From: Thermodesulfobacteriota bacterium
Lineage (GTDB): Bacteria; Desulfobacterota; BSN033; UBA1163
Direction: 5' to 3'
DNA: 44,845 nucleotides
Assembly: GCA_030017685.1 (NCBI GenBank)
Contig: JASEHH010000019.1
Location: forward strand, 1 to 44,845
Below, piece after piece: positions 7,749-22,127 of this stretch. A program made the position numbers and the translations under genes. Numbering within the stretch: position 1 is the first letter of the stretch; the number at the start of each line of letters is the position of its first letter. A model generated the notes under the pieces. It was not told the origin of the DNA, did not search any database, and was given only the letters and a program-made list of their open reading frames with translations.

Positions 7749-8912
7749 ATGCCCTATGATGTCAATCTCAATTTTGTTTTTAGGTTCCCAACAAAGATCA
7801 TATTCGGACCCGGCGCCGCTAAGGAAGTGGGAATGGAAGTTGAAGAATTAAAGGGAACCAAGGCGTTGATCGTGACAGACCGGGACCTCGTCAAGACGGA
7901 CCTCGTCAAAATTGTACGGGATGCCCTGGGAGCGAAATGCGTGGGCACCTTTTCTGACGTTACTCCTGATACAGGCGTACATATCGTTAATGCCGGCTCG
8001 GAATATGGAGCAGCGTTAGGAGCGGACACCCTCATAAGTGTCGGAGGGGGAAGCGCAATCGATACGGCTAAAGGGATGGCGATCTGTTTGACAAAAGGCG
8101 GAAGGCTTGAGGACCATGCCGGCCTCAATATCCTTGACGGTCCTGTCATGCCGCACATCGTCATCCCAACAACAGCCGGGACTGGAAGCGAGGTTACCTA
8201 TGCCGCGGTCATAAAGGATCATGAACAGAAGAGGAAGTTACTCTTTGCGGACAACTACCTTATTCCGAACGTTGCCATCCTCGACCCGAACATGACGATC
8301 GGGATGCCCAAAGGGCTGACCGCCGCTACGGGAATGGATGCGCTGAGCCATTGCATCGAAGCTATTCACTCCATGCAGAGCGAACCGATCGCGGATGCTC
8401 TGGCCTTTCATGGAATAAGGATGATAAGAGAATTCCTCCCCAGGGCTGTCGAAAATGGAGGAGATATCATCGCAAGGGGACAGATGCTCATTGCCGCCAC
8501 CATTGCAGGAGCAGCTTTTTCGAATGCCCAGGTGGGAATGGTGCATGCTCTTGCCCATTGTATCGGCGCAAGATTCGGCGTCCCTCATGGTATTGCCAAT
8601 AGCATCCTCTTGCCACACTGCATCCTGTACAACCTCGACGCCTGCCCCGACCGATACTCCCGAATCGCCGAAGCCATGGGCAAAGAACTAAGAGGAATGG
8701 ATCTTTTAAAAGCCGCAGAACAGGCCGCCATAGCCATGTGGGAATTTACGAAAGCTATTGGAATGCCACAGACCTTAAGAGAAGTGAATGTGGAAGAATC
8801 CGGGCTGGAGCAATGTGCGAATGACGCTTTAATGGATGGGGCGATCGTTTACAATCCAAAGCCGATCTTCGATCCGGCTGAGATCCTAAAAGTATATCAG
8901 AAGGCGTTTTGA
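7749..8912 (+). CDS. Iron-containing alcohol dehydrogenase (complete copy)
   Basis: The 387-residue group III alcohol dehydrogenase has an N-terminal nucleotide-binding domain (FGPGAAKEVG, then GGGSAIDTAKG at about residues 98-108). Its C-terminal helical metal domain has TTAGTGSEVT, GMDALSHCIEAI and HALAHCIGARFGVPHG, which supply the Asp and three His metal ligands. It should oxidise an alcohol or reduce an aldehyde with NAD(P)H. The ATG follows a GGAGGAGAGGAGG purine run. Bases 8121-9206, running on into the next gene, look identical to 15968-17053. Bases 7934-8120 differ from the second copy at 30 of 187 sites, mostly silent. Confidence 0.93.
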   Translation: MPYDVNLNFVFRFPTKIIFGPGAAKEVGMEVEELKGTKALIVTDRDLVKTDLVKIVRDALGAKCVGTFSDVTPDTGVHIVNAGSEYGAALGADTLISVGGGSAIDTAKGMAICLTKGGRLEDHAGLNILDGPVMPHIVIPTTAGTGSEVTYAAVIKDHEQKRKLLFADNYLIPNVAILDPNMTIGMPKGLTAATGMDALSHCIEAIHSMQSEPIADALAFHGIRMIREFLPRAVENGGDIIARGQMLIAATIAGAAFSNAQVGMVHALAHCIGARFGVPHGIANSILLPHCILYNLDACPDRYSRIAEAMGKELRGMDLLKAAEQAAIAMWEFTKAIGMPQTLREVNVEESGLEQCANDALMDGAIVYNPKPIFDPAEILKVYQKAF

Positions 8913-8922
8913 ATTAACGCAA

Positions 8923-9342
8923 ATGGCAGAAATAACGATTCTCAAAGAAGCAAGCGAAATCGGCCTGGCCGTTATGCTTTCCGATCTCATTCGGCAGAAC
9001 CTGGATCAGAACCCGGGAAAAATAAAACTCTTTAACTCGTTAGATGCAAGGGTGCTGATAGAAGCCCGGGACATTCAGATCACCGTAGGGCTCAAATTCA
9101 AACAGGAAAGACTCACTATTTCAGAGGGTTTCTCTGTTAAACCCGACCTGCATATCATCGCCGGTTCTTCAACGATTCTCGATTTATGCCTCCTGAAGAT
9201 CAAATTTGGCCTTCCTTACTTTTTTGATAAAGCAGGTTTTAAGGTTCTCAAAAAACTTTTAGCCAGGGAACTCATCATCAAAGGGCTGTTTTGCCACTTT
9301 TTCACCCTTGTTAAACTGACCCAGTTGTTCTCCGTCATGTAA
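8923..9342 (+). CDS. SCP2-like small protein (copy 1)
   Basis: The 139-residue cytosolic protein has a helical N-terminus followed by alternating strands (ARVLIEARDIQITVGLKF, ERLTISEGF, KPDLHIIAGSS). The layout resembles a short SCP2 domain, ending in a hydrophobic helical tail. I place it with SCP2-like proteins at moderate confidence. It starts ten bases after the ADH stop with no clear ribosome-binding site. GCGTT/AACGC would fold around the ADH stop codon, so translation is probably coupled. A second copy lies at 16770-17195. The two are identical up to 9206 and then diverge. Confidence 0.62.
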   Translation: MAEITILKEASEIGLAVMLSDLIRQNLDQNPGKIKLFNSLDARVLIEARDIQITVGLKFKQERLTISEGFSVKPDLHIIAGSSTILDLCLLKIKFGLPYFFDKAGFKVLKKLLARELIIKGLFCHFFTLVKLTQLFSVM

Positions 9343-10842: not shown

Positions 10843-13029
10843 TTACGAAGCGTATGGTATCGGACTATTTCTATTGCTCCTTCCGAAGTGAGAGAACGCA
10901 GATTGAAAGTTGTTGCAATTAGCCTCTGGGCTTGTGGCAGAGTGAGGGTTGGAGTTTTTTTTAAATCGAATTCGCAGTCGCAGCATAAAGTGCAATCCGA
11001 GAAAAACGTAAATCATATGTCGATGCCAGGCTGGCCAGGAACGATGCTCATAATGATCCATGCCCAGTTGGCCTTTGCCTTCCTCAAAGCATTGCTCGAT
11101 GGGCCATCGCATGATGGAGGCTTTGCACATTTCGGAAAGAGGCATATCGATCGGTGCATTGGAAAAGGAAAATTTCATCTTTCCATCGGGAGTCTTTCTG
11201 ATAAAGAGCCATACCGGGACATCTTGCGGAAGCCCATTTCGGGCCGGATAGACTCGGAGACGGGTCACCTTGGCTACAATCGGTCCCTTGGCACCTTCCG
11301 CCAGGATCACCGATTTCCATCGACATTTGGCGAAGCGAGCCATATCGGCTACGGTTTTCGGCTGAGGTTGACCCGGTAAAAGGTGAAGCCGTTTGGGTTT
11401 TCGTCCTCGACCTGAGTAAAGAAGGAGTTCTACCAAGGGTTTTTTGAGAAAGACTTGAGTATTGGAGCGGACAGCGGCGAAGTAGTAGTAATCTTTCGGT
11501 AAGGATTCAAGGAAATGAATATCGGAACCAAAGGTGGCATCACAGCCAATCCACTGGCCCGCAAAGAGTTTGGTCCGGACGACTTGATGGACCAATTCCA
11601 GAGCGATCTGGAGCTTGGTTTGAAAGGTCAGATCCTCCGGCACCCAATTCTCTTTCCGTCTCTGCGCGTATTGCGGGGAAAACCAGCTCTCCGGCATATA
11701 GAGCCGACCTGTGAGCAGAGCATACCCTTTTTCACTGGAGTAGCCGACAAAGACACCGGATTGGCAGTTCTCCACCTTGCCGATAGCGCCGCAATACTGA
11801 CGGGCAACTCCTACGGACTCCTTGCCCTTTTTGATAAACTCGCAACTATCCACGTTGATCATGCCCCCGGGATCGGCGATCATGGGCGAGAGCAGAATTT
11901 GATTCTTAAGCTCCATCGTTTCATGATCCCAGCGGCACTCTTTCATAAACCGTTGCAGGGAGCGAACACCATCTTCTCCCAAGAATTCAAGGGCGACTGG
12001 CTCAGCCGATTTGGCTTTCATATTGCTCATCAGCCCAGAGAGATAGGCCAAGCCTAATCGCTGCTGCTCGATGCGTCCAAAGCAGTCATGAAAGTGTTGA
12101 TGAAATTTGACCAGTTCTTCGGCCATGCGTTTTACATCTTCTTCTGTAAGAGTCATCCAGGGAACCAGTTCTGGGTTCCAATGGGCCTGGCGTAACATCA
12201 TCTTCAGCTCCTCCACTTTTTCTAAGGATGGTGGAGGACGATGAAAGAGGTCGTAGGGTTTGGGTTCGCAACCGATGATCTTTCGAAAACGAGGCTCTAA
12301 GACATAGACATAGACCTCCTTTATGGAACCGTGATGGACATAGCCACGTCCTTCTTTACTGTAACCCTGGGTTTGGCCGATGAACTTCCAATTGGCCGCT
12401 TTGTAGCTGGTCCCTCTGAACCGGAAGGGGTCCACAAAGGTCTCCAAAAGCCATAAGGGTTGATCAAAATGTTGCTCCCAGTCCTTGGTTAATCGGCGAA
12501 TGTTGAGGGAAAGAACGTGGGAAGCTAAATGAGGCACCAGTACCCAGGGGAAAATGAGAAACCGGCTATTTTGGGCGATTCGGCCCAGGTAGGTCTTCCT
12601 TTGTTCTTCAGACCACCCAATAAAACGGTCCCGAACGCCGACCTTCAAGGCTGCAGCGCTCCAGGAGAGGGCAGCCACAGGATGCTCTCCACTCAGAGCA
12701 AGATACTTTAACCGATGGCCTAATAGATTTTGATAACTCAAGTAATGATACTGCTTGACCAGATAGTTCCAAACAGGTTCTAAATCGGATCCACTGACCA
12801 ATTCCATTGTGATGGGGTGTAAAGATTTTAAACTTCCACAAAGGGTTTCAACAGGCTGTTTGAAAACAGGGTGAATGAACTTTGACATGAATCCGCTATC
12901 CATTAAGGTGGTGCTTTCGAAAGGACGCACCATTCCTTTGCCACCGGAACTGATCACTCCCGGTAGACTTAAAATCCCTAACCCGTGGCCTCTTTCATAC
13001 GCCCCGGTTATAGATATAGCAGATTCCAT
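10843..13029 (-). CDS. IS701-like DDE transposase with N-terminal DruA (DUF4338) domain
   Basis: The 728-residue protein has two parts. Residues about 75-255 match the DUF4338 / DruA domain (QYHYLSYQNLLGHRLKYLAL, AARDRxIGWS-like VRDRFIGWSEEQR, NSRFLIFPWV, LLETFVDPFRFRGTSYKAANW). Residues about 310-700 form a DDE transposase of the IS701/IS4-like type, with the first Asp in VDSCEFIKKGKESVGVARQY, the second in WIGCDATFGSD and Glu in RWPIEQCFEEGKGQLG. The catalytic residues look intact. I could not find matching terminal inverted repeats between 10794 and 13062, so exact element ends are unknown. The fusion is interesting because DruA alone belongs to the Druantia defence system. Confidence 0.85.
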   Translation of the reverse strand: MESAISITGAYERGHGLGILSLPGVISSGGKGMVRPFESTTLMDSGFMSKFIHPVFKQPVETLCGSLKSLHPITMELVSGSDLEPVWNYLVKQYHYLSYQNLLGHRLKYLALSGEHPVAALSWSAAALKVGVRDRFIGWSEEQRKTYLGRIAQNSRFLIFPWVLVPHLASHVLSLNIRRLTKDWEQHFDQPLWLLETFVDPFRFRGTSYKAANWKFIGQTQGYSKEGRGYVHHGSIKEVYVYVLEPRFRKIIGCEPKPYDLFHRPPPSLEKVEELKMMLRQAHWNPELVPWMTLTEEDVKRMAEELVKFHQHFHDCFGRIEQQRLGLAYLSGLMSNMKAKSAEPVALEFLGEDGVRSLQRFMKECRWDHETMELKNQILLSPMIADPGGMINVDSCEFIKKGKESVGVARQYCGAIGKVENCQSGVFVGYSSEKGYALLTGRLYMPESWFSPQYAQRRKENWVPEDLTFQTKLQIALELVHQVVRTKLFAGQWIGCDATFGSDIHFLESLPKDYYYFAAVRSNTQVFLKKPLVELLLYSGRGRKPKRLHLLPGQPQPKTVADMARFAKCRWKSVILAEGAKGPIVAKVTRLRVYPARNGLPQDVPVWLFIRKTPDGKMKFSFSNAPIDMPLSEMCKASIMRWPIEQCFEEGKGQLGMDHYEHRSWPAWHRHMIYVFLGLHFMLRLRIRFKKNSNPHSATSPEANCNNFQSAFSHFGRSNRNSPIPYAS

Positions 13030-15775: not shown

Positions 15776-16759
15776 CCGAGGAAATGCGTGGGCATCTTTT
15801 CTGAGGTCACTCCTGATACAGGCGTGCACATCGTTAATTCCGGTTCGGAATATGGAAGAACCCTGGGAGTTGACATTCTGGTCAGTGTCGGAGGAGGAAG
15901 CGCTATTGATACGGCAAAAGGAATGGCGATCTGTTTGACAAAAGGCGGGAGGCTGGAGGATTATGCTGGCCTCAATATCCTTGACGGTCCTGTCATGCCG
16001 CACATCGTCATCCCAACAACAGCCGGGACTGGAAGCGAGGTTACCTATGCCGCGGTCATAAAGGATCATGAACAGAAGAGGAAGTTACTCTTTGCGGACA
16101 ACTACCTTATTCCGAACGTTGCCATCCTCGACCCGAACATGACGATCGGGATGCCCAAAGGGCTGACCGCCGCTACGGGAATGGATGCGCTGAGCCATTG
16201 CATCGAAGCTATTCACTCCATGCAGAGCGAACCGATCGCGGATGCTCTGGCCTTTCATGGAATAAGGATGATAAGAGAATTCCTCCCCAGGGCTGTCGAA
16301 AATGGAGGAGATATCATCGCAAGGGGACAGATGCTCATTGCCGCCACCATTGCAGGAGCAGCTTTTTCGAATGCCCAGGTGGGAATGGTGCATGCTCTTG
16401 CCCATTGTATCGGCGCAAGATTCGGCGTCCCTCATGGTATTGCCAATAGCATCCTCTTGCCACACTGCATCCTGTACAACCTCGACGCCTGCCCCGACCG
16501 ATACTCCCGAATCGCCGAAGCCATGGGCAAAGAACTAAGAGGAATGGATCTTTTAAAAGCCGCAGAACAGGCCGCCATAGCCATGTGGGAATTTACGAAA
16601 GCTATTGGAATGCCACAGACCTTAAGAGAAGTGAATGTGGAAGAATCCGGGCTGGAGCAATGTGCGAATGACGCTTTAATGGATGGGGCGATCGTTTACA
16701 ATCCAAAGCCGATCTTCGATCCGGCTGAGATCCTAAAAGTATATCAGAAGGCGTTTTGA
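15743..16759 (+). pseudogene. Iron-containing alcohol dehydrogenase, second copy, 5'-truncated
   Basis: Homology to the complete ADH starts at 15781 and corresponds to residue 62 onward, so the first strand-helix-strand of the nucleotide-binding fold is gone. The open frame is extended upstream by about a dozen codons contributed by the RayT element (MSNSTQSTTSPP). The GGGSAIDTAKG loop and all metal ligands remain. Bases 15781-15967 are about 84 percent identical to copy 1. From 15968 the two appear identical base for base. A protein could be made but is unlikely to bind cofactor normally, so I call it a pseudogene or remnant of a formerly complete paralogue. Confidence 0.8.
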
Positions 16760-16769
16760 ATTAACGCAA

Positions 16770-17195
16770 ATGGCAGAAATAACGATTCTCAAAGAAGCAA
16801 GCGAAATCGGCCTGGCCGTTATGCTTTCCGATCTCATTCGGCAGAACCTGGATCAGAACCCGGGAAAAATAAAACTCTTTAACTCGTTAGATGCAAGGGT
16901 GCTGATAGAAGCCCGGGACATTCAGATCACCGTAGGGCTCAAATTCAAACAGGAAAGACTCACTATTTCAGAGGGTTTCTCTGTTAAACCCGACCTGCAT
17001 ATCATCGCCGGTTCTTCAACGATTCTCGATTTATGCCTCCTGAAGATCAAATTCGGCCTTCCATACTTTTTTGATAAAGCAGGTTTTAAGGTTCTCAAAA
17101 AGCTTTTAACCAGGGAACTCATCATCAAAGGGCTGCTTCGCCACTTTTTCACCCTTGTTAAACTGACCCGGTTGTTCTCCGTCGTCAGGGACTGA
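16770..17195 (+). CDS. SCP2-like small protein (copy 2)
   Basis: The 141-residue protein is nearly identical to the one at 8923-9342. The two genes match exactly to 17053 and then differ at scattered sites (for example RELIIKGLLRHFF versus RELIIKGLFCHFF), with a different last few residues. The spacer to the upstream ADH copy is also conserved. The frame is intact, so it may still be expressed if a promoter is supplied upstream. Confidence 0.62.
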   Translation: MAEITILKEASEIGLAVMLSDLIRQNLDQNPGKIKLFNSLDARVLIEARDIQITVGLKFKQERLTISEGFSVKPDLHIIAGSSTILDLCLLKIKFGLPYFFDKAGFKVLKKLLTRELIIKGLLRHFFTLVKLTRLFSVVRD

Positions 17196-19695: not shown

Positions 19696-21150
19696 TTATC
19701 CTTTAATCACTCCCATCGGCACCAGTTTGACCACCTTCAGGCTGATGCCTGCATGGTGAACCACATTCACCACATCATTGACATCTTTATAGGCGTCGGG
19801 AATCTCTTCCTCTATCGTCCCCCGGCTTGCTCCCTTCACGATGATCCCCTTATCCTCCATCTCCCTCACAACCGCCCTTCCCTTTGCCATCTTGATGGCC
19901 TGATGGCGGCTCATCACCCTTCCTGCTCCGTGACAGGTGGAGCCGAAAGTCTCTTTCATCGCCCTTTCCGTCCCGATCAAAACATAGGAACACCTGCCCA
20001 TGTCACCGGGGATGAGGACAGGCTGACCGATGGACCGGTAATCTTCCGGAATATCTCGATGGTCTGGAGAAAAGGCTCTTGTCGCTCCTTTTCTGTGGAC
20101 ACAGAGTTTCTTCTTCTCCCCGCTGACCATATGTGTTTCGATCTTGGCAATATTATGACAGACATCGTAGACTAAATCGAGCTTAAGATCCCTTGGACTC
20201 TTCTGAAGGACCTGTTCGAATGTTTCCCTCACCCAGTGTGAAATCATCTGCCGGTTCGTGAAAGCATAATTGGCTGCACAGGCCATGGCTTCCAGATACC
20301 GGCTTCCCTCAGGTGAAGAGATCGGAGCGCAACAGAGCTGGGGATCGGGAAGCTCGATCCGATATTTCCGGGCAGCATCCATCATGACCCTTATATAATC
20401 GTCACATACCTGGTGCCCAAAACCCCTTGAACCCGTATGGACGAGGACGGTCACCTGATCCTTCCATAACCCCAATACCCGGGCAACATCATTATCAAAT
20501 ACCTCAGCCACATAACCCACTTCAACGAAATGGTTTCCGGAACCTAACGTCCCTAATTGCGCCCTTCCCCTTTCCATCGCCCTCTCTGAGACGCGGTCCG
20601 GATCAGCGCCTTCGATGCAACCTAGTTCTTCGATATGCTCGATATCCTTTGCTGTGCCGAACCCCTTCTCAACTGCCCACCTCGCCCCTTTTTTCAAGAC
20701 CTGCCTCTGCTCCTCTCTATTCAGCTTCAGGTCCTTTCGATGGGAACCCACGCCCGAAGGGATGTTGATGAAAAGGGTATCCACCAGATCCTTCATCCTT
20801 CCCTGAATGTCCTTGCGGCTCAAACCTGAGCGCATCAATCTCACGCCTCAGTTGATATCATATCCCACCCCTCCTGGGGAGACGATCCCATCATTCAAAT
20901 CGAAGGCGGCCACACCGCCGATGGGAAAACCATATCCCCAGTGGATATCCGGCATGGCCAGGGAATAACCCACGATGCCCGGAAGCCAGGCGACATTGGC
21001 CACCTGGGCGAGGCTTTGATCTTTTCGGATATTGTTAAACATCTGTTCATCGGCATAGATGATACCATCGGTTTTCATCTTTCCCTCGCGAGGGATCCTC
21101 CACCGATAATCATCGACCTTCTGAACCTTGATCTTTTCATCTCCAGTCAT
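19696..21150 (-). CDS. rtcB: RNA-splicing ligase RtcB, probable selenoprotein (UGA at the metal-binding Cys)
   Basis: Reading through one TGA gives a 484-residue protein aligned end to end with archaeal-length RtcB. RtcB is the Mn/GTP-dependent ligase joining 2',3'-cyclic phosphate or 3'-phosphate ends to 5'-OH ends of RNA. The frame reads GGVGYDIN, then TGA (20848-20850), then [10 protein letters not shown]. The family sequence is GYDINCGVRL, so TGA replaces exactly the invariant metal-ligand Cys (position 101, matching Cys98 of Pyrococcus RtcB). Other ligands and the nucleophile are intact: D98, H207, H238, H332, and H407 in STCHGAGR. No other stop or frameshift occurs. A bacterial SECIS-like hairpin follows 13 bases later. 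GAGGAG precedes the ATG, and archease is encoded upstream. A chance nonsense mutation is the alternative, but the position and hairpin argue against it. Confidence 0.88.
20814..20834 (-). promoter_or_regulatory. Bacterial SECIS-like stem-loop
   Basis: In the rtcB mRNA, 13 bases after the UGA, UGCG-CUCA pairs with UGAG-CGCA across a four-base GGUU loop, with one bulged C on the 3' side. That is eight base pairs. The loop begins with GG, 21 bases after the UGA. This resembles the E. coli fdhF SECIS, which has a GGUC loop and similar spacing, and falls within the range described for bacterial SECIS elements that recruit SelB. The element lies inside coding sequence, as bacterial ones do. Confidence 0.75.
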
Positions 21151-21166: not shown

Positions 21167-21276
21167 GTTCATGGTTCATGGTTCATTGTTCATGGTTCAT
21201 TGTTCATTGTTCACCGTTCATTGTTCATCGTCTTTGCTTCATCGTCCATCGTCCATTGTTCATCGTTTATCGTTAT
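21167..21276. repeat. About fifteen degenerate heptamers between archease and rtcB
   Basis: Units of GTTCATG/GTTCATT/GTTCATC run in phase from 21167 to about 21229. They then continue more degenerately (GTCCATC, GTCCATT, GTTCATC, GTTTATC). On the mRNA strand each unit reads AATGAAC or similar, giving an ATG every seven bases in rotating frames ahead of the true rtcB start. The gene spacing (about 130 bases) consists almost wholly of this repeat. Confidence 0.85.
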
Positions 21277-21279
21277 TCA

Positions 21280-21744
21280 CTAAAGATCTAAAATGACCTG
21301 CGCCCTCCAGCCTCCGTCCTCTCTTTTTACTTGAATCTGATGATGGGTCACCGCCTTCACCCCTGTCTTGATCACATGGGCTCCCTCCTGAAAGAGTTCT
21401 CCTTTTACCCTTGCCCTCAATCCCCCCTCTCCGACAGCCTCCACTTTAAAACCCTTAAACAGGAGGTTCTCTACATCATAGAGGTAGAGAAGTTCATTCA
21501 ACCAATCGACCATCATTCGCTCCAGGCTCTCTCCTTTAAGTTCGATCTTCCTCTCTTCCTTTTGCTTCACCCCCTTCAAATCGGTGATGAGATGGAAGAA
21601 GGCTTCGCCCGCATTCTCAAAAAGCGTCTTGAGATCCTTACCATACACGATCAGCCCTATATCTGCTGTGTGATCCAGGATTTCAAAACGTTTTCTTCTC
21701 TTTTTGACCTTCACGCCTTCTTCAGAAGATGAACCGCAGATCAC
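21280..21744 (-). CDS. Archease, RtcB activator
   Basis: The 154-residue archease has the diagnostic start FEILDHTADIGLIVYGKDLKTLFENAGEAFF and the C-terminal acid/His cluster region VKTGVKAVTHHQIQVKRE. By family knowledge archease speeds RtcB guanylylation, allows multiple turnovers and broadens NTP use. It lies directly upstream of rtcB on the same strand. The start is a GTG at 21744 preceded by AGAGG, overlapping the thioesterase stop by four bases. A second GTG 11 codons in (SD GAAGAAGG) would give MKVKKRRKRFEIL and is equally plausible. Confidence 0.93.
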   Translation of the reverse strand: MICGSSSEEGVKVKKRRKRFEILDHTADIGLIVYGKDLKTLFENAGEAFFHLITDLKGVKQKEERKIELKGESLERMMVDWLNELLYLYDVENLLFKGFKVEAVGEGGLRARVKGELFQEGAHVIKTGVKAVTHHQIQVKREDGGWRAQVILDL

Positions 21745-22127
21745 CCGGACCTCTTCTTTTCTACCTTCTGTCTAAAATGTTCTTTAGAAACAAAAACCCG
21801 TTCATGTTCCCCTTCGGCTACCTTCTCCATCTCATCATAGGCATCCACCAGAAAGAGGAGTCGGTTCTTATGAACCTCCTTCAGGATGGCATTGCCCGTC
21901 ACTTTCATGCCAAGAGGCGTAGCGGACAGGTGTTTGATTTTTACCTGCGTTCCGAGGCTCAATTGGTCAGGAGGGATGATATCCTGAATGGCGTTAACCG
22001 CCGCTTCCTCCATCAGTTGAATCAGCCTCGGGGTTGAGAGAACATCGACAGGACTATCGCCCAACCGGCTCACCAGATCCTCTTCCTTCACAATCATCTC
22101 AGCTTTTCCCATCAATCCCGGTATCAT
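21741..22127 (-). CDS. FlK-like acyl-CoA thioesterase family protein
   Basis: The 128-residue hotdog-fold protein resembles the FlK-like thioesterase family. The supporting segments are DVLSTPRLIQLMEEAAVNAI, GTQVKIKHLSATPLGMKV and FLVDAYDEMEKVAEGEHERVFV. These place the Thr, Glu and His positions used by fluoroacetyl-CoA thioesterase-type enzymes. A general acyl-CoA thioesterase is the best guess, not a proven substrate. It overlaps the archease gene by four bases, so it shares a transcript with archease and rtcB. Confidence 0.82.
   Translation of the reverse strand: MIPGLMGKAEMIVKEEDLVSRLGDSPVDVLSTPRLIQLMEEAAVNAIQDIIPPDQLSLGTQVKIKHLSATPLGMKVTGNAILKEVHKNRLLFLVDAYDEMEKVAEGEHERVFVSKEHFRQKVEKKRSG

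Follow-up and report, generated by a model that had tools for sequence, protein, structure and literature searches.

An rtcB gene with an in-frame UGA codon almost certainly read as selenocysteine at the metal-bridging position of its RNA ligase, and its counterparts across several bacterial phyla

The Cys-type RtcB proteins PH1602 of Pyrococcus horikoshii, TTHA1785 of Thermus thermophilus, E. coli RtcB, and human RTCB were the closest described systems to the product of rtcB (19696..21150, minus strand) in a 44,845-nt stretch of DNA from a Thermodesulfobacteriota bacterium (assembly GCA_030017685.1, contig JASEHH010000019.1, positions 1 to 44,845; the whole stretch is hereafter called the window). 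In P. horikoshii RtcB, Cys98 touched both Mn ions, human Cys122 was paired with this residue, and the Cys-to-Ala change at the matching position abolished ligation in P. aerophilum, E. coli, and human RtcB (excerpts of the review PMC10630183). Selenocysteine (Sec) had been placed at the very same residue of P. horikoshii RtcB by engineering: this Sec98 protein was obtained by UAG suppression, was made as a reporter, and involved no Sec insertion sequence (SECIS), while the window gene was natural (excerpts of PMC4150793). Sec likewise coordinated the catalytic metal in FdhA and [NiFeSe] hydrogenase, but these were Mo/W or Ni redox enzymes, while RtcB ligates RNA at a binuclear divalent-metal site and is no redox enzyme. 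The window rtcB shared with Cys-type RtcB the full-length homology, the other metal ligands, the guanylylated His, and archease next door, and it differed from them in having a UGA-coded residue 101 and a SECIS-type hairpin. UGA 101 was almost certainly read as Sec, which would make this RtcB a natural selenoenzyme; on genomic grounds the reading is secure, as judged from a single gene spanning the UGA, conserved UGA, selected hairpin, complete machinery, Sec/Cys exchange, and intact active site.

The window protein matched the 3'-phosphate/5'-OH RNA ligase family PF01139 (RtcB) in a profile search with 596.7 bits over residues 49-484 (cut-off 27), and its closest solved relatives were TTHA1785 (607 bits) and PH1602 (PDB 1uc2; 600 bits, residues 8-484). 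The frame, running from 21150 to 19696, contained a single TGA at codon 101 (20848..20850, minus strand), was otherwise open, and gave one predicted selenoprotein of 484 residues if this TGA was taken as Sec. Codon 101 sat in the motif GYDIN-U-GVRL and was aligned with Cys98 of PH1602, the aligned structures having Cys there; the original prediction, which had placed one in-frame TGA at the invariant Cys of GYDIN-C-GVRL within an intact frame and had proposed Sec at the metal site, was thus confirmed as to frame and position, and its Sec reading gained support from recurrence, hairpin covariation, and Sec machinery. Alignment, with roles taken from excerpts of PMC10630183, assigned the following codons on the minus strand: (i) predicted metal ligands Asp98 (20857..20859; Asp95 of P. 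horikoshii), His207 (20530..20532; His203), His238 (20437..20439; His234), and His332 (20155..20157; His329), and (ii) the predicted guanylylated His407 (19930..19932; His404). All RtcB metal ligands and the guanylylated His were kept in the window protein, the sole change being that from Cys98 to a UGA codon; moreover, Cys406, beside the guanylylated His, was near-invariant in Sec and Cys forms alike. The ratio of nonsynonymous to synonymous substitution rates (dN/dS) against 12 relatives, including one Cys form, was 0.025-0.14 on either side of the UGA, with dS defined in 21 of 24 comparisons and many dS values above 1, which made the ratios rough; these ratios indicated purifying selection on both segments. 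TGA terminated 10 of the 34 window open reading frames (ORFs) taken as genes, so the rtcB UGA looked like local recoding rather than a changed genetic code. Nine records were compared, and the closest named DNA in them was a deltaproteobacterial metagenome-assembled genome, L150 (93.7% over 2575 bases).

The same codon was then followed across genomes. The relatives survey comprised 99 whole genomes (that of the window and its relatives), 86 of which had an RtcB match; one in-frame TGA, always at codon 101, was present in 21 of these 86 (the window's own genome included), at identities down to 69%, and each of the 21 had a single RtcB match in which the codon was read. A TGA at the matching codon of related homologues, which had been proposed as a check, was thereby found, and the relatives were not all TGC or TGT. 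One scan of the species genomes of GTDB, with a degenerate motif pattern demanding TGA, yielded at least 117 contigs; all these loci read as RtcB, with 378-390 residues open beyond the TGA, apart from L067 (324), L096 (287), and loci where the sequence piece ended. As named in the records, they came from deltaproteobacteria (47), Nitrospirota (40, including Ca. Magnetobacterium casense and Ca. Magnetominusculus xianensis), Acidobacteriota (20), and 10 others, among which were one each of Planctomycetota, Binatia, and Methylomirabilota. The predicted Sec-RtcB is widespread across bacteria and is not a matter of one gene. Two phylum-wide surveys, in which many RtcB matches were distant relatives and the TGA counts were lower bounds, gave TGA in at least 8 of 125 genomes with an RtcB match in Acidobacteriota (199 genomes; codon seen in all 8) and at least 16 of 167 in Nitrospirota (198 genomes; codon seen in 12 of the 16). 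No TAA or TAG lay inside rtcB among the strong matches listed in the three surveys; the exceptions, both from the Acidobacteriota survey, were G229, a short and distant match containing a TAG, and G281, a partial match containing two TGA. Among 31 Cys homologues the aligned codon was TGC in 19 and TGT in 12, and viral contigs gave no match to the TGA-rtcB pattern.

A search of the source genome for selA, selB, selC (tRNA-Sec), and selD returned every component above its cut-off, as the original prediction had required: selA (632 bits), selB (374), tRNA-Sec (82.2), and two selD genes (392 and 369). Both selD genes, L189 (C295) and L190 (C121), contained one TGA each, followed by a predicted hairpin. 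selA was above cut-off in all TGA-rtcB genomes listed in the three surveys (45/45, vs 303/496 overall): (i) 21/21 against a base of 89/99 in the relatives survey (P 0.08), (ii) 8/8 against 129/199 in Acidobacteriota (P 0.03), and (iii) 16/16 against 85/198 in Nitrospirota (P 5e-7), with a combined P of 3e-7 in which kinship was ignored. Among 48 named genomes drawn from the TGA pattern loci, a selA match was present in 45 and above cut-off in 44; selD was above cut-off in 21 of 24 Nitrospirota-type genomes, those without it being G118, G114, and G120.

A SECIS-type hairpin was located inside the coding sequence of the window gene (20814..20834, minus strand), composed of an eight-pair stem, in whose 3' strand a single C is bulged, and the apical loop GGUU at 20823-20826; its stem began 13 nt past the UGA, its loop lay 21 nt from the UGA, and five pairs stood above the bulge. 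The spacing of the stem, its eight pairs, and the GGUU loop agreed with the earlier description of a SECIS-like hairpin. The local fold had an energy of -9.5 kcal/mol, and the hairpin belonged to the minimum-energy fold of a shorter stretch only. The bacterial SECIS (bSECIS) model, as given in excerpts of PMC13188914, had an upper stem of 4-16 bp, an apical loop of 3-9 nt with G in the first two positions, a distance of 16-37 nt from the UGA, and a minimum free energy of at most -7.5 kcal/mol; the window hairpin agreed with that model in stem, loop, G position, spacing, and energy. SECIS elements of bacteria may be specific to the species. The window sequence by itself would not prove a SECIS, and the claim was carried by comparative tests.

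Since the hairpin region is coding, each gene was compared with random synonymous versions of itself in which its own protein and its own codon use were preserved. The mean z of the hairpin was -1.55 for 144 TGA loci (a set that included the window twice over and further loci repeated between sets), -0.05 for 19 TGC loci, and 0.01 for 12 TGT loci; in a thinned set (<93% identity), 89 Sec genes had a mean z of -1.49 vs -0.06 for 30 Cys genes (Mann-Whitney P 3e-7). In group A (87 distinct sequences, scored in an explicit register), 7.21 of 8 pairs formed vs 4.81 expected, all eight being present in 44 of the 87; 31 Cys sequences had 4.77 pairs vs 4.36 expected, five of them reaching seven or more. 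The first three loop bases in group A were GGT in 44, GGG in 12, GTG in 12, and AGT in 9. For covariation, 20 distinct sequences sharing one loop class were scored: 26 cells were changed on both sides vs 10.1 in shuffles, the covariation score was 0.504 vs 0.195, and no shuffle of 500 was as high in either measure. RNAalifold returned no structure on all group A or on all Cys sequences, probably owing to a mixture of different registers of loop and bulge, and it was replaced by the register-aware scores and per-class covariation. Taken from these comparisons, the downstream hairpin is maintained beyond the demands of the protein, with compensatory changes; the conservation and covariance that the original prediction had proposed to seek in relatives were both encountered.

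To trace exchange between Sec and Cys, a quick tree was built from 89 Sec and 30 Cys proteins (119 in all), residue 101 being masked. By parsimony this tree needed at least 14 Sec/Cys changes, of which starred branches forced at least nine, vs about 27 for shuffled labels; Sec rows were over-sampled in it (the scan sought TGA), and Cys genes found in the Nitrospirota survey were not included. L015, a Cys relative of 85% identity, had TGC with the hairpin sequence kept in a genome still containing selA, and L249 from Nitrospirota looked alike, with TGC followed by apparently leftover SECIS sequence; both probably represent recent Sec-to-Cys changes. None of the other alignment columns separated the 89 Sec from the 30 Cys rows cleanly. 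A Cys partner accompanying Sec was sought as well, and none was found consistently; the best candidate, column 302, had Cys in 28 of 89 Sec rows and 0 of 30 Cys rows, which may reflect clade inheritance. The lack of an extra Cys going consistently with Sec favored a metal-ligand role over a Ux..C redox pair. As a separate observation on this site, RtcB matches in G157, G185, G387, G397, and G436 were split at query residues 99-101 within one frame of about 960-1070 aa, the pattern expected of an intein inserted at that residue, with both pieces of the broken match listed for G157 and G185 and the C-terminal piece only for G387, G397, and G436. P. horikoshii RtcB was itself spliced, with Cys98 at the junction (excerpts of PMC4150793). 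The Sec position seems to coincide with an intein site in other RtcB proteins.

Several observations, which extend to the Nitrospirota genes treated next, weighed against the Sec reading. The window gene's own synonymous-codon test gave z -1.49 and only P 0.09, and P 0.05 was reached singly by 38% of the 144 TGA loci. When 61 nt from the UGA were folded alone, another structure was preferred (z -0.37; 59 of 200 shuffles folded at least as well), and this isolated fold was set aside as an uninformative test of a SECIS. Fewer than seven of the eight pairs formed in 14 of the 87 group A genes. In the 20 loop-class sequences, 94.4% of cells paired (25-49% in slid versions), a value inflated because these sequences were picked by best-scoring register; two of five covariation measures did not exceed shuffles, namely pairs changed on both sides (4 vs 3.7) and further pair types (9 vs 7.4, with 74 of 500 shuffles as high). 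As for the machinery, a selA match was missing in G118, G129, and G137 and was only partial in G102 among the 48 named genomes, and locus L068 of G118 (Ca. Magnetobacterium casense MYR-1) had an open TGA-rtcB frame in a genome with no selA match and no selD above cut-off; these absences were tentatively put down to gaps in draft assemblies, with real loss as the alternative for G118. Finally, the engineered Sec98 P. horikoshii RtcB cleaved spontaneously near Sec (excerpts of PMC4150793, 2014), and Sec is therefore not tolerated without harm by all RtcB proteins.

In the Nitrospirota-type genes, where RSN or RTN follows Sec, the group A hairpin was missing (3.68 of 8 pairs vs 4.19 expected). 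In its place, 37 distinct sequences had a two-part stem, which was delineated by visual inspection of the very sequences later scored and had an outer part of 4.27 of 5 pairs vs 2.38 expected and an inner part of 4.70 vs 4.12; 18 of the 37 were at P 0.05. The outer stem was at 2.12 vs 2.05 expected in 25 Cys genes of the Nitrospirota survey and at 3.8 vs 2.48 in five TGA genes of that survey, three of which repeated sequences used earlier. The cells paired amounted to 86.9% vs 85.4% in shuffles; nine cells were changed on both sides, a count which none of 500 shuffles equaled but which slid versions of the stem matched or passed (9 and 10). The loop G was not constant, and RNAalifold gave only a weak, unrelated structure. 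This stem likely constitutes a different, less clear SECIS.

Three alternatives would deny Sec at codon 101 altogether. A sequencing error, or a nonsense mutation recently acquired by a decaying gene, would need a single base, and the source genome was a draft assembly (326 contigs, 92% complete); at the level of the family this was refuted by recurrence, the same TGA at the same codon being found in 21 of 99 genomes and on at least 117 contigs, and the lack of TAA or TAG among the strong matches listed, the low dN/dS on both sides, and the absence of a second RtcB match from all 21 genomes left it a negligible probability, so that the error by which the original prediction might have failed was not borne out. 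Reading of the UGA as another amino acid, for instance Cys, through an unusual tRNA or a mischarged tRNA-Sec would suit the Cys of the homologues, and DNA cannot distinguish Sec from Cys at UGA; it was considered highly improbable in view of the TGA stops of other window ORFs, the presence of the Sec machinery, the tracking of selA by TGA-rtcB, the fit of the hairpin to a SelB-type signal, and the TGA in both selD genes. The gene might also be split, with a stop at the UGA, a restart at GTG two codons on, and assembly of the two chains, or the UGA might be a regulatory stop: a 382-aa ORF with GTG start began directly past the TGA, and a caller treating UGA as stop would draw it separately, just as had been foreseen for standard gene callers. 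This GTG codes for Val in GVRL, a residue that every motif row keeps, and its presence needs no role as start codon; the break would fall on the metal-bridging residue, and stop and restart would predict neither the selA linkage nor the Sec/Cys exchange, which made a split gene or regulatory stop very unlikely as well.

A further alternative accepts Sec-RtcB as real and takes Sec to be nearly neutral, drifting in and out with Cys wherever the machinery exists. It was favored by the at least nine exchanges on the tree, by the Cys relative L015 with its kept hairpin sequence and selA, by the many selA-bearing survey genomes with Cys forms, and by the few sequence differences accompanying Sec. 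Retention of Sec in deep groups (32 of 32 rows of one clade), though one base change would lose it, spoke against neutrality, but only as a weak argument, because the rows came from a TGA-seeking scan and the Nitrospirota survey's Cys genes stood outside the tree. Neutral drift of this kind was regarded as a tenable possibility, if a somewhat doubtful one.

Under the preferred reading of UGA 101 as Sec, SelB with Sec-tRNA would decode this codon, guided by the hairpin 13 nt downstream, and Se would be physically present in the protein, replacing the Cys sulfur that bridges two catalytic divalent metals (probably Mn), close to the guanylylated His. The bridged metals would position GTP for guanylylation of His407; archease, encoded next door, would activate Sec-RtcB; and the enzyme would join 3'-phosphate or cyclic-phosphate to 5'-OH RNA ends in a GTP-dependent manner. 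Oxidized selenium is reduced back more readily than oxidized sulfur, and Sec could for that reason be a built-in answer to Cys oxidation in RtcB. Many host groups of Sec-RtcB (deltaproteobacteria, Nitrospirota) are probably anaerobes, and with 87 of the 117 scan contigs (117 being a minimum) belonging to these two groups, the argument from oxygen protection was weakened. Human RTCB was inactivated by oxidation of its active-site Cys122 by Cu(II) or peroxide/reactive oxygen species and relied on the flavoprotein PYROXD1 (excerpts of PMC12263435). PYROXD1 answers the same weakness, the parallel being our own, but there a separate flavoprotein shields the site of human RTCB, while here the residue itself would be altered; protection by Sec from overoxidation was proposed for [NiFeSe] hydrogenase (excerpts of PMC13188914). 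Whether the advantage of Se would lie in easier recovery from oxidation and/or in a changed metal-bridging ligand, such a benefit was held to be about evenly balanced between being real and not, and Sec may also tune the metal affinity of RtcB.

The gene next upstream of rtcB encoded archease, the RtcB activator (21280..21744, minus strand; PF01951, 153 bits), and overlapped by 4 bases with a gene for an FlK-like thioesterase (21741..22127, minus strand; PF22636, 109.5 bits), a conserved neighbor with a DNA match in the relatives L150, L154, and L085, for which we know of no role in RNA repair. Of 113 full-length Sec-rtcB loci, 99 had archease in the flank, as did 13 of the 31 Cys loci; in the thinned set the counts were 75 of 89 vs 12 of 30. 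The higher frequency beside Sec genes is only suggestive, flank lengths and kinship being different. A degenerate 7-bp tandem array (GTTCATC, 15.4 copies; 21167-21274) lay in the interval separating archease from rtcB, shortly before the rtcB start. Elsewhere in the window, a 1403-bp direct repeat (7934-9336 and 15781-17183, 97.4% identity) carried an iron-containing alcohol dehydrogenase together with the ORF that follows it, and in the second copy the dehydrogenase was shorter at its 5' end (338 vs 387 aa); an IS701-family transposase gene (10843-13029, minus strand; 273 bits) was positioned between the two copies, and this transposase possibly caused the duplication.

A 2026 inventory of 119 prokaryotic selenoprotein families/subfamilies (PMC13188914) did not have RtcB in its Table 1, and 'ligase' and 'RtcB' were absent as word starts from its main text; 'ligase' was likewise not met in excerpts of the deep-Sep paper (PMC12013277) and of Peng et al. 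2016 (PMC5029168). Among the papers listed by full-text searches, a natural Sec-RtcB was not found and only the engineered Sec98 (PMC4150793) was, with preprints and NCBI protein records outside this scope and an earlier listing possible there. In NCBIfam (June 2026), four families matched the window protein, none over cut-off, and no curated model of Sec-RtcB was present. The original prediction, which knew of no described Sec-RtcB family, thus held within the literature searched, and Sec-RtcB is apparently an undescribed selenoprotein form.

On at least 117 species-genome contigs, software treating UGA as stop would cut rtcB in two. The active-site Cys of RtcB was both essential and an oxidative weak point (excerpts of PMC12263435 and PMC10630183), a matter on which a natural Sec version bears, and the related Sec/Cys pairs offer natural material for asking what selenium buys in a non-redox metalloenzyme. 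Sec-RtcB would add a form from RNA metabolism to an inventory whose uncharacterized members were mostly thought to be redox proteins (excerpts of PMC13188914). In its widest form the proposal is put forward tentatively, with confidence a little short of even: Sec-RtcB, distributed over several phyla, may, judged from the literature searched, be without precedent both as a Sec-containing RNA-repair ligase and as an enzyme whose selenolate bridges a binuclear divalent-metal (Mn) center, and it would survive or recover from metal-driven oxidation, as a counterpart in chemistry to PYROXD1, and would tie RNA repair to selenium supply.

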